64,000 bases of DNA, taken from NCBI RefSeq assembly GCF_014844035.1, contig NZ_CP062159.1:5394001-5458000 (forward strand), given 5' to 3'. The position numbers were made by a program, and so were the translations under genes. The stretch is from Flavobacterium sp. MDT1-60 (lineage in GTDB: Bacteria > Bacteroidota > Bacteroidia > Flavobacteriales > Flavobacteriaceae). Of the stretch, positions 47,408 to 50,372 are shown in pieces. Positions within the stretch are counted from its first letter, which is position 1. Each line of letters begins with the position of its first letter. The notes beneath the pieces were generated by a model. It searched no databases. It worked only from the letters and a program-made list of their open reading frames with translations, and was not told where the DNA came from.

Positions 47408-47490
47408 GTAGGTGTAGTTTTAAGCAAAGTAACAAAGAATGAAAATCTTATCACTTTTTATTATCAAAAATTTAACTCAAATAACAACAA

Positions 47491-47522
47491 AAAAAGCTGA
47501 TGAATTTCTCCACCAGCTTTTT
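47491..47522 (-). terminator. Terminator of lysine-rich peptide gene A
   Basis: AAAAAGCTG / CAGCTTTTT around a 14-nt loop, 64 bp after the stop. Related in sequence to the terminator of gene B (AGCTGA...AAATTTCT...CAGCTTT). Confidence 0.75.
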
Positions 47523-47585
47523 CTCTACCAAATTTTTTAAAACCTTTTAATCCACAATAAAGTCTATAAATAAACTTATGCTTTC

Positions 47586-47768
47586 TTATTTTTGAGCTTT
47601 TGCCGCTTCTGGCTTAGCTTCTGCTTTTTTAGCTTTTTTATCTGCTTTTTTATCTTTTTTAGAAACTTTAGCTTCTTTTGCCGGAGCTGTTTGAGCTGGA
47701 GTTGTTTGAGCGCTTACCATTGCAGTTGTTCCTAGAACAGCGATTGCTAACATTACTAATTTTTTCAT
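47586..47768 (-). CDS. Lysine-rich exported peptide A (Asr-like)
   Basis: A 60-residue protein: signal peptide at 1-20 (MKKLVMLAIAVLGTTAMVSA, cleavage before QTTPAQ) and a mature part of about 40 residues that is very rich in Lys and Ala with few acidic residues (KEAKVSKKDKKADKKAKKAE). It has no fold or catalytic residues; it looks like the acid-shock peptide Asr of enterobacteria in design, although similarity is compositional only. Paralogue of the peptide at 50080-50298 (same signal-peptide pattern LAIAVLGTTAMVSA / LLVAVLGTSAMVHA). The upstream region has an identical promoter layout, and its terminator is related. It lies just downstream of the kinase gene but with its own promoter. Confidence 0.85.
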   Translation of the reverse strand: MKKLVMLAIAVLGTTAMVSAQTTPAQTAPAKEAKVSKKDKKADKKAKKAEAKPEAAKAQK

Positions 47769-47808
47769 GATTTTAAGTTTTATGATTATTATCTTATTAT
47801 TTATAGCC

Positions 47809-47842
47809 CAAAGATATAATCGGAAAATGAAGACAAAATGAA
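47809..47842 (-). promoter_or_regulatory. Promoter and direct-repeat operator of lysine-rich peptide gene A
   Basis: On the minus strand: TTCATTTT (47835-47842), 3 bp, TTCATTTT (47824-47831), 7 bp, TATCTTTG (47809-47816). The repeats have an 11-bp period, the usual footprint of an OmpR-family dimer, and lie where the -33 element should be. Same arrangement, with identical distances to the ATG, as at gene B. Confidence 0.75.
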
Positions 47843-47870
47843 GATTGAAGCAGTTCTCAAAATTTAACTT

Positions 47871-49208
47871 TTAATTGTGTAAATGCGCTTCAGGAAACAA
47901 AAGTGTGAAGCTTGTTCCTTCATTTATTTCGGAAGTAACTTTAATCTCAATATGATGAAAAAGAGCAATACTCTCAGCAATAGCAAGTCCCAGCCCCTGC
48001 CCGTCCTGATCAGAACTTATTCGGGCAAATCTGTTGAATATCTTTTCGATTTGTGCGGCATTCATTCCAATACCGGAATCTTTTATGACTATACAATATT
48101 GATTATTATAAAACCTATCTTCTACTATAATACTCCCTTTTGGTTTATTATATTTGATAGCATTCGTCACTAAATTATAAATCAATATATGAATCAGGGT
48201 TTTATTTCCAGTGAAGATAAAATCATGGTTTATATTGTTTAAAAACTGAATTTCCCGGTCTTCAATTCTATCTTGTAAATCATCCTCTAAATTTTTTAAA
48301 ATATCTTTGAAATTGATTTTTTCATTAGCTTCGTACTGATTATTTTCGATTCTGGAAATCAGCAATAAGTTATTGATGATTTTTTTCAGCATGTCTAACG
48401 TTCTCAACGCACCTGCGATTTTATCAAAAGCATTGTCGTCTAAAGATTCATTCTGCAATAAATTTTCAAACTTATTTTTCAGCAAAGCAATTGGGGTTAA
48501 CAATTCATGAGAAACATTCGAAATAAATTGTTTTTCTTTTTTGAAAAGTTCCGCAATTCTATCCATCATTTGATTTAAAACCAAATCCAGTTCGCGAAAA
48601 TCTCTTGATCTTGCATTAATTGGAGTATGATCAAAAGCTTCCGGTTCGTTAACACGCCTGATCTTCGTATCAATAATTTTATAGAAAGGTTTGAGCAGGT
48701 ATTCGATATAAACTGTATCGGCTAAAAAAGTCACTAAAAGAATAACGACCAAAACGATAATAATGAAGAACCGAATTATGAAAGTAAGATCTTTTACTTC
48801 ACTTAAACTACTTCCTATTTCCAGCTGATAACCTTGATTTTCATAGGTAAAATGATATTGCAAAATTCGATATTCATTTTCTTCACCTTCAATCACCCGA
48901 TAATCATTGCTGAAAGTTGTTTTCTTCTGATTTGGTTTTAAAAGAATTTTAGAAAGCACTAAAAATTCGCTGTGTAAAGTAGAAAACTGCGAATACGTTT
49001 CGGTAGAATCATCTGAATTTTCGATAAAATCATTGATCTCATTTTGATTCAAATGATCAATAAATTTTTTCTTTTTCTCCACCAATCCATTATTAATATG
49101 TCTGTACACCACATTTTCGACTAAAATGGGCAACATCAGCCATAAAATCAAAATCACCAACAATCTTGTCAGTGCATTAAAAATAGCCAATTGGTGTTTT
49201 ATTTTCAC
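47871..49208 (-). CDS. Sensor histidine kinase
   Basis: 445 residues. First helix about 10-32, an extracytoplasmic domain of about 105 residues (33-140), second helix about 143-167, then HisKA with SNVSHELLTPIALL (phospho-His about 232), N box NLVTNAIKYN, G1 DSGIGM, F box IFNRFAR and G2 GQGLGLAIA. All catalytic boxes are complete. The sensor domain has no recognised fold. It follows its response regulator by 10 bp, and the pair is flanked by the two lysine-rich peptide genes. Confidence 0.94.
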   Translation of the reverse strand: MKIKHQLAIFNALTRLLVILILWLMLPILVENVVYRHINNGLVEKKKKFIDHLNQNEINDFIENSDDSTETYSQFSTLHSEFLVLSKILLKPNQKKTTFSNDYRVIEGEENEYRILQYHFTYENQGYQLEIGSSLSEVKDLTFIIRFFIIIVLVVILLVTFLADTVYIEYLLKPFYKIIDTKIRRVNEPEAFDHTPINARSRDFRELDLVLNQMMDRIAELFKKEKQFISNVSHELLTPIALLKNKFENLLQNESLDDNAFDKIAGALRTLDMLKKIINNLLLISRIENNQYEANEKINFKDILKNLEDDLQDRIEDREIQFLNNINHDFIFTGNKTLIHILIYNLVTNAIKYNKPKGSIIVEDRFYNNQYCIVIKDSGIGMNAAQIEKIFNRFARISSDQDGQGLGLAIAESIALFHHIEIKVTSEINEGTSFTLLFPEAHLHN

Positions 49209-49218
49209 AGAAATTTAT

Positions 49219-49893
49219 TTACTCATTTATACGATAACCTACATTTCGTACGGTTTCAAACCAATTTATTGGAGTGTGCTTATCAAGTTTTTTTCGGAGA
49301 TTTCGAACATGAACATCAATAAAATTTGAATCGGAATTAACTTCCAAAATATCTCCCCAAATATGCTCTGTAAGTTGTAGCCGGGTGATGACACGATTTT
49401 TATTCAATACAAGATATTGAAAAATGTCAAACTCTTTTTTAGTCAAATTAATTGGAATTTCATCATAACTCACTTTATAATCCTGCAACTGTAGTAAGAA
49501 ACCATGCACTTCTAAATTGTTCAAAGTAAAACCATGAATTCTGCGAATAACCGCAAATAATCTTGCGCTTAATTCGGTCAAAGCAAATGGTTTTGTCAAA
49601 TAATCATCAGCACCTAAATGCAATCCATTTATTCTGTCATCTAATTCTCCGCGAGCTGTCAGGACAATTACAGCTATTTTAGATTTTGTTTTACGAATGG
49701 TTTTCAGAACTTCAAAACCATCTCCGTCAGGCAAACCAAGATCAAGCAGCATCGCATCATAATCATTACTTCCCACTTCTTCAAGAGCATCACTGCAACT
49801 ATTTGCTATTTTACATATATAACCCACGTTACACAAAAAATCGTAAACTTCTACGGCAAGCTCCTTATTATCTTCAACAATTAAAATATTCAT
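49219..49893 (-). CDS. OmpR-family response regulator
   Basis: 224 residues: receiver domain (about 1-115; phospho-acceptor Asp51 in MLLDLGLPDGDG, conserved Lys in LTKPFAL) and a winged-helix DNA-binding domain (about 128-222, ending FIDVHVRNLRKKLDKH ... FETVRNVGYRI). The ATG at 49893 (MNILIVEDNKELA) is preferred over the frame to 49914. Forms an operon with the kinase. Likely target: the TTCATTTT direct repeats before the two peptide genes (inference). Confidence 0.95.
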   Translation of the reverse strand: MNILIVEDNKELAVEVYDFLCNVGYICKIANSCSDALEEVGSNDYDAMLLDLGLPDGDGFEVLKTIRKTKSKIAVIVLTARGELDDRINGLHLGADDYLTKPFALTELSARLFAVIRRIHGFTLNNLEVHGFLLQLQDYKVSYDEIPINLTKKEFDIFQYLVLNKNRVITRLQLTEHIWGDILEVNSDSNFIDVHVRNLRKKLDKHTPINWFETVRNVGYRINE

Positions 49894-49975
49894 AAAAACA
49901 GCGTTTAAGCGCAACTAAATTTAAGCAATTAAAAAAAGTGTTGATGCGTATTATTAAAAAATTAACGAATCAAAA

Positions 49976-50003
49976 AAAGCTGACAAATTTCTTCGTCAGC
50001 TTT
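49976..50003. terminator. Terminator of lysine-rich peptide gene B
   Basis: AAAGCTGAC / GTCAGCTTT around a 10-nt loop, about 77 bp after the stop. It shares sequence with the terminator of gene A. It lies between gene B and the response regulator. Confidence 0.75.
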
Positions 50004-50079
50004 CTCATCCACATTCCATAACCATTATTCCTGTTTTGTTTCCTTCTACCATGATTTGAAAACAAAACAAAAGCAATAC

Positions 50080-50298
50080 TTATTTTTTCACTTTTGCTGT
50101 TTCTGATTTTGAAGTTTCACTTTTCACAGTTTTCGCTTTTTTTTCAGATTTGTGTTTAGGATGTTTCGTAGATTTAACTTCTTTTGCAGGAAGCGCTTTT
50201 ACTTCTTTTGCAGGACCTACTTTTACAGCAGGAGGAAATGCATGTACCATTGCACTTGTTCCTAAAACGGCTACTAGTAACATCAATAAATTTCTCAT
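50080..50298 (-). CDS. Lysine-rich exported peptide B (Asr-like)
   Basis: 72 residues. Signal peptide 1-20 (MRNLLMLLVAVLGTSAMVHA), then a mature part of about 52 residues with repeated PAKEVK (twice) and Lys/Ser/Thr-rich tail (KHPKHKSEKKAKTVKSETSK), strongly basic and without a predicted fold. Paralogue of peptide A across the two-component genes, with the same promoter layout. It probably acts in the periplasm; the function is not known. Confidence 0.85.
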   Translation of the reverse strand: MRNLLMLLVAVLGTSAMVHAFPPAVKVGPAKEVKALPAKEVKSTKHPKHKSEKKAKTVKSETSKSETAKVKK

Positions 50299-50338
50299 GA
50301 TTTCTAAATTTTAAATTAATACCTTTTATTTTACAGAT

Positions 50339-50372
50339 CAAAAGTACCTCTGCAAAATGAAGGTAAAATGAA
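50339..50372 (-). promoter_or_regulatory. Promoter and direct-repeat operator of lysine-rich peptide gene B
   Basis: On the minus strand: TTCATTTT (50365-50372), 3 bp, TTCATTTT (50354-50361), 7 bp, TACTTTTG (50339-50346). Layout and distance to the ATG (41 bp) match gene A exactly, although the intervening bases differ. Confidence 0.75.

Follow-up and report, generated by a model that had tools for sequence, protein, structure and literature searches.

A conserved direct-repeat promoter element accompanies a candidate two-component regulon of lysine-rich exported peptides in Flavobacterium

Two small genes for lysine-rich exported peptides, here called pepA and pepB, flank the genes of a response regulator and a sensor histidine kinase in Flavobacterium sp. 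MDT1-60. Positions are those of a 64,000-nucleotide stretch (the window) of this genome (G000), which is a single contig of 5.56 Mb. Read along the minus strand, pepB comes first, followed by the regulator, the kinase and pepA (Table 1), and the kinase begins at a GTG codon 10 nucleotides past the stop codon of the regulator gene. An original prediction had described two small exported-peptide genes on either side of a two-component operon, and both its coordinates and its sequences were correct when checked again. The two peptide cassettes align from promoter to terminator, as expected if the whole cassette was duplicated, and the terminators share a common stem sequence and fold strongly. 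When pepB is used as the query against the genome, just these two copies are returned at E≤1, with no third. On the evidence of sequence, the regulon proposed for these genes is real and well conserved.

Table 1. Features of the locus, as positions in the window
Feature	Positions	Strand	Description
pepB promoter	50339..50372	-	TTCATTTT-ACC-TTCATTTT-N7-TACTTTTG; two half-sites with 11 bp period, then -7 box
pepB, 72 aa	50080..50298	-	signal peptide and Lys-rich mature part
pepB terminator hairpin	49972..50008	-	-18.5 kcal/mol, z -7.1
OmpR/PhoB-type response regulator, 224 aa	49219..49893	-	ATG start at 49893; Response_reg and Trans_reg_C
sensor histidine kinase, 445 aa	47871..49208	-	GTG start at 49208; two hydrophobic segments flank acidic periplasmic domain
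pepA promoter	47809..47842	-	TTCATTTT-GTC-TTCATTTT-N7-TATCTTTG
pepA, 60 aa	47586..47768	-	signal peptide and Lys-rich mature part
pepA terminator hairpin	47488..47524	-	-18.8 kcal/mol, z -6.2

Both peptide genes are preceded by the same arrangement, TTCATTTT-N3-TTCATTTT-N7-TAnnTTTG, in which the last motif is the -7 element of flavobacterial housekeeping-sigma promoters (consensus as given in passages of PMC6847099 and PMC9723704). The shared architecture had been recognized earlier with its equal period and spacings, all of which hold; the distance of 41 given for the ATG, however, counts the step to the A, and 40 nucleotides lie between box and start codon at both genes (48 if counting starts at the T of the box). 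For F. johnsoniae, sections of PMC6847099 place the -7 element from T-12 to G-5 and describe the -33 motif as weak. By this numbering, the repeats occupy about -38 to -20.

This element is rare in its own genome. When up to three mismatches are allowed, the repeat pair occurs 19 times in the window, where 12.9 occurrences are expected, and it is exact only at these two genes. The exact pair TTCATTTTNNNTTCATTTT has four occurrences genome-wide and its reversed control none. With the -7 box at the right spacing, the full element has exactly two perfect matches in the 5.56-Mb genome, both at this locus; one further match carries one mismatch and seven carry two, and the reversed control gives 10 matches. 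The concern that the repeat pair might be common near unrelated promoters is thus not borne out. We set aside the two remaining exact pairs (L001 and L002), which overlap the start codon of an open reading frame (ORF), in L001 that of an SMR-transporter-like protein, have the opposite orientation and lack a -7 box at the proper spacing.

We then compared the window with related loci, taking a match at E≤1e-100 as presence of the kinase. This threshold identifies 115 of 398 Flavobacterium genomes, and the other 114 loci were set beside the window. Of the 80 kinase loci that carry names, 76 belong to Flavobacterium, three to 'Flavobacteriaceae bacterium' and one to '[Flexibacter]', the closest being that of Flavobacterium sp. 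Root420, whose kinase is 96% identical. A strict regular expression matches 104 sites, spread over 81 of the 115 loci; one of these has no ORF behind it and approximately four precede something other than a peptide gene (the regulator gene in L135 and L136, a PepSY-like gene in L147 and L131). A relaxed expression applied to the same loci (723 kb) yields 213 sites on the sense strand, with none on the antisense strand and none in reversed sequence. A Lys-rich exported peptide stands behind a site in 114 of the 115 kinase loci, the exception being G257, which is considered below.

Peptide genes, rather than sites, were also taken as the starting point. Among peptide ORFs downstream of the kinase, 109 of 111 have the repeat pair between -130 and -40, and none has it when the same stretch is read backwards; where the kinase is less than 72% identical, the pair is still present for 33 of 35. 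Upstream of the regulator gene the count is 91 of 129, and many of the remaining ORFs follow another peptide gene in a tandem run that a single site precedes. A control stretch from -350 to -260 contains the pair for one of the 111 downstream and 31 of the 129 upstream peptides, and we attribute the 31 to sites that belong to the leading gene of a tandem pair. The spacing to the core promoter is rigid, in that 203 of the 213 TTCAT-N6-TTCAT pairs are followed by TAnnTTTG exactly 10 nucleotides on, and the other 10 have no such box within 60 nucleotides.

For 33 divergent downstream sites, all of them different, pairwise identity is 0.52 in the 40 nucleotides before the site and 0.47 in the 36 after it. 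At letters that the regular expression leaves free, identity reaches 0.94, 0.88 and 1.00 at positions 10, 17 and 18, and it is 0.40-0.77 at positions 6-9 and 0.29-0.50 at positions 19-26 (calculated on 34-nucleotide sites only). From this pattern we conclude that the deeply conserved core is TTCAT-N4-TCTTCATTT.

Presence of the site and of the kinase also coincide across genomes. The relaxed site is found in 113 of the 398 genomes, comprising 113 of the 115 with the kinase and none of the 283 without it, and a reversed control pattern occurs in two of 398. Relatives that retain the two-component genes and the peptides thus generally retain the site as well. A stricter pattern is present in 82 of the 398 genomes; among 296 genomes of the order, it occurs in 11 of 26 from the same genus and in none of 270 from other genera.

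The argument for control by the regulator is carried by cases in which the usual linkage is broken. In G257 the kinase pair has another neighborhood (L215), and the usual place (L214), between polA and a phosphoesterase gene as named from their sequences, retains two Lys-rich peptide genes, each with its site. The same genome has a third site on another contig, before a 113-amino-acid ORF with a Lys-rich stretch (L213). Elsewhere, a site lies ahead of the regulator gene itself in four loci (L130, L135, L136 and L142), and ahead of an exported protein of 155-164 amino acids in five (L131, L133, L137, L147 and L148, the last with a variant -7 box). The proteins of L147 and L131 resemble the PepSY_like family PF11396 (E values of 6.8e-6 and 0.0055; 26.7 and 17.4 bits, cut-off 28.3). 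They are probably an additional regulon member in divergent loci, and no counterpart is seen in the window cassette. In these two loci and others like them the gene lies between polA and the regulator gene (L131:1270-1740 and L147:1305-1772, with the kinase on the plus strand). Conversely, the kinase-less genome G161 encodes a lookalike peptide elsewhere, and no TTCAT repeat pair precedes it. Among the relaxed matches listed, one more, in G378 (C24), falls inside a 356-amino-acid ORF and was taken as chance; the per-genome table of presence is complete.

Taken together, these observations make it very probable that the neighboring regulator controls both peptide genes, as had been proposed: the site is kept with the genes, was not found in the 283 Flavobacterium genomes that lack the kinase, is rare in its own genome and stays with the peptides even where they are unlinked from the kinase. 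Several facts nevertheless weigh against this interpretation. In the window, the regulator gene itself lacks such a site, and two genomes (G392 and G419) have the kinase and no match to the relaxed pattern. Divergent loci preserve only the TTCAT-N4-TCTTCATTT core well, rather than two full copies of TTCATTTT. An orphan site in G117 (C57, L311) has no intact peptide ORF behind it and faces away from a deacetylase-like gene. Finally, since site and kinase are mostly neighbors and the genomes are related, their co-occurrence largely reflects joint retention or loss, and a Fisher value calculated for it is not a probability.

Pfam domains place the two central genes within the OmpR/PhoB class of two-component systems, with Response_reg and Trans_reg_C in the regulator and HisKA and HATPase in the adjacent kinase, all four above curated cut-offs. 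Assignment to a named system is less direct. The closest NCBIfam model for the regulator describes PmrA/BasR-type proteins (NF007928), yet the score of 183 bits lies under the equivalog cut-off of 330, and we rejected PmrA orthology. The nearest solved structures are DrrD (1kgs) and, second-best at 126 bits, BasR (8jo2). PmrA also uses direct repeats near -35, and the half-site TTCATTTT is unlike that of PmrA. Orthology of the kinase to PorY was likewise rejected, as the best match (NF052314, 258.9 bits) falls below the subfamily cut-off of 350; the partner encoded in this operon is an OmpR-type regulator, and PorX is of another type. The DNA-binding domain of the regulator contains a stretch, around NFIDVHVRNLRKKL, that is the same in 97% or more of the 115 loci, which is in keeping with a conserved site. 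The sensor domain of the kinase has a median net charge of -8 over 112 kinases (the alignment took in 112 of the 115 loci), and a sequence search of this domain against solved structures gave chance-level matches only.

The peptides carry the opposite charge. Across 240 peptide ORFs from the 115 loci, the part beyond residue 20 has a median net charge of +8 and consists of 31% Lys, in line with the earlier description of the mature parts as strongly basic, and it contains almost no Leu, Ile or Phe and no Trp. Signal peptides were assessed by visual inspection and with a simple hydrophobicity rule. Neither pepA nor pepB matches a Pfam or NCBIfam family above its curated cut-off. A protein search with pepB finds 116 relatives; among the matches listed, those with names come from Flavobacterium or Flavobacteriaceae and are mostly annotated 'hypothetical protein'. 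A peptide profile (A3) matches 135 of the 398 genomes at E≤1e-4, among them 113 of the 115 kinase genomes (all but G331 and G404) and 22 of the 283 without it. Seven of these 22 were inspected: in four of them the best match lies in a frame of about 700 amino acids, the matches of G300 and G033 look unrelated, and G161 has the lookalike mentioned above. The other 15 all have E values worse than 1e-6. Some relatives have a conserved N-terminal extension (MKSxIHE..NKL..LSK) ahead of the hydrophobic stretch of the signal peptide (L093, L107, L118, L122, L126, L135 and L165). Tandem duplications of peptide genes ahead of the regulator gene, apparently behind one site, occur in L065 and in others of the series L056-L086, and reach four copies in L065.

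Gene content, site, spacing, conservation and co-occurrence are read directly from the DNA, and they strongly suggest that the regulator binds the paired site. According to the mechanism we propose, the membrane kinase, through its acidic periplasmic sensor domain, would phosphorylate the OmpR/PhoB-type regulator, a dimer of which would bind the paired half-sites with their 11-bp period, across roughly -38 to -20 and beside the housekeeping-sigma -7 box. The regulator would then serve as a class II activator of both peptide genes, located where a weak -33 element would lie. Such activators are expected to use 11-bp direct repeats whose distance to the core promoter is constant, and one -7 box distance accounts for 203 of 213 pairs. 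Once exported, the polycations would exert their effect in the periplasm or on the envelope under whatever stress the kinase senses, the likeliest role being that of a charge-based protectant or chaperone resembling Asr. As a whole, this account, in which the four genes constitute a narrow regulon whose regulator activates genes for Asr-like envelope protectants, seems to us reasonably likely. The protectant role considered by itself has somewhat less than an even chance, and we infer it, like the kind of stress, only weakly.

The likeness to enterobacterial Asr, which the original prediction had raised, is one of resemblance rather than family membership. Portions of PMC9026648 describe an E. 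coli asr promoter in which a PhoB box spans -39 to -22 and overlaps the -35 region, and report that RstBA induces asr in mild acid; text from PMC10746267 presents Asr as an intrinsically disordered chaperone that aids outer-membrane integrity. The flavobacterial peptides share with Asr (PF06392, under RstBA and PhoRB) small size, export, basic charge and low complexity, including a Lys/Ala-rich composition. The promoters also correspond, as far as those portions describe asr: a strong promoter whose -35 region is covered by an OmpR-family box, in a geometry equal to that of the present repeats. Because the repeats at about -38 to -20 resemble this box, class II activation is the best interpretation of their position. 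The systems differ in that asr also carries a distinct RstA box, from -77 to -55 (as those portions give it), and in that the flavobacterial two-component genes lie between their candidate targets, which number two or more peptide copies. Membership of the Asr family does not hold, as the PF06392 profile has no match in the MDT1-60 genome under conditions where the E. coli control matched. A few relatives (P0146, P0150, P0151, P0156, P0164 and P0235) bear the UniRef name 'Acid-shock protein', although the window peptides have no PF06392 match.

The opposite charges of sensor and peptides admit another view of the same circuit, wherein the basic peptides are feedback ligands that bind the acidic sensor domain and shut the kinase off, much as the small membrane peptide MgrB offers a comparison case with PhoQ. 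Strict co-retention of peptides and kinase would fit this idea, as would the presence of a second exported protein, the PepSY-like one, under the same site in some loci. Tandem copies numbering up to four, together with low-complexity and variable mature parts, suggest instead a bulk action rather than a specific ligand, and we regard the feedback model as unlikely. A broader speculation, to which we give a similarly low probability, is a charge-homeostasis circuit: the acidic kinase domain, putatively of CACHE type, would read the cation or proton load of the envelope (or free anionic charge), and the exported polycations, as the main or only output in most genomes, would buffer or screen that charge and in turn influence the sensor by feedback. 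Such an arrangement would have evolved separately from enterobacterial Asr, yet with an identical promoter geometry.

Repression would also be compatible with a site that overlaps the promoter core, since a regulator bound to repeats over the -33 region could block polymerase. The rigid distance to the -7 box and the likeness to the activating PhoB box of asr fit activation better, and so we infer that the peptide genes are activated and judge repression to be quite improbable. A role of the peptides as exported weapons or as surface factors, such as antimicrobial polycations or binders of anionic polysaccharides, under a sensor of competitors or surfaces, is very unlikely. Their cationic, Lys/Ala-rich and exported character would suit such a role, but no gene for maturation, immunity or dedicated export is seen alongside in the window and 14 loci, and amphipathic antimicrobial peptides differ from a composition so poor in Leu, Ile, Phe and Trp. 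Least credible of all is that some other factor binds the repeats, or that they are a local variant of the core promoter, with the two-component genes as mere neighbors: site and kinase do usually travel as one locus, but the site occurs nowhere in 283 kinase-less genomes, stays with the unlinked peptides of G257, precedes the regulator gene in four loci and is missing before the lookalike peptide of G161.

If regulator and peptides are coupled as we propose, a flavobacterial OmpR-type two-component system gains a clear candidate for its DNA site, along with a candidate regulon of few genes, and therefore offers a clean test bed for activators at the unusual -7 promoters of Bacteroidota. The same system would serve to examine the role of exported polycationic, low-complexity proteins. 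Full-text searches of open-licence PMC papers turned up no earlier description of this regulon.

Two minor features of individual loci complete the survey. In one relative (G307:C1:4653125-4654428) the kinase reading frame is split, and the site and the peptides are retained. In L145 and L146 (L146/L215), a polysaccharide-deacetylase-like gene lies directly before the regulator gene.

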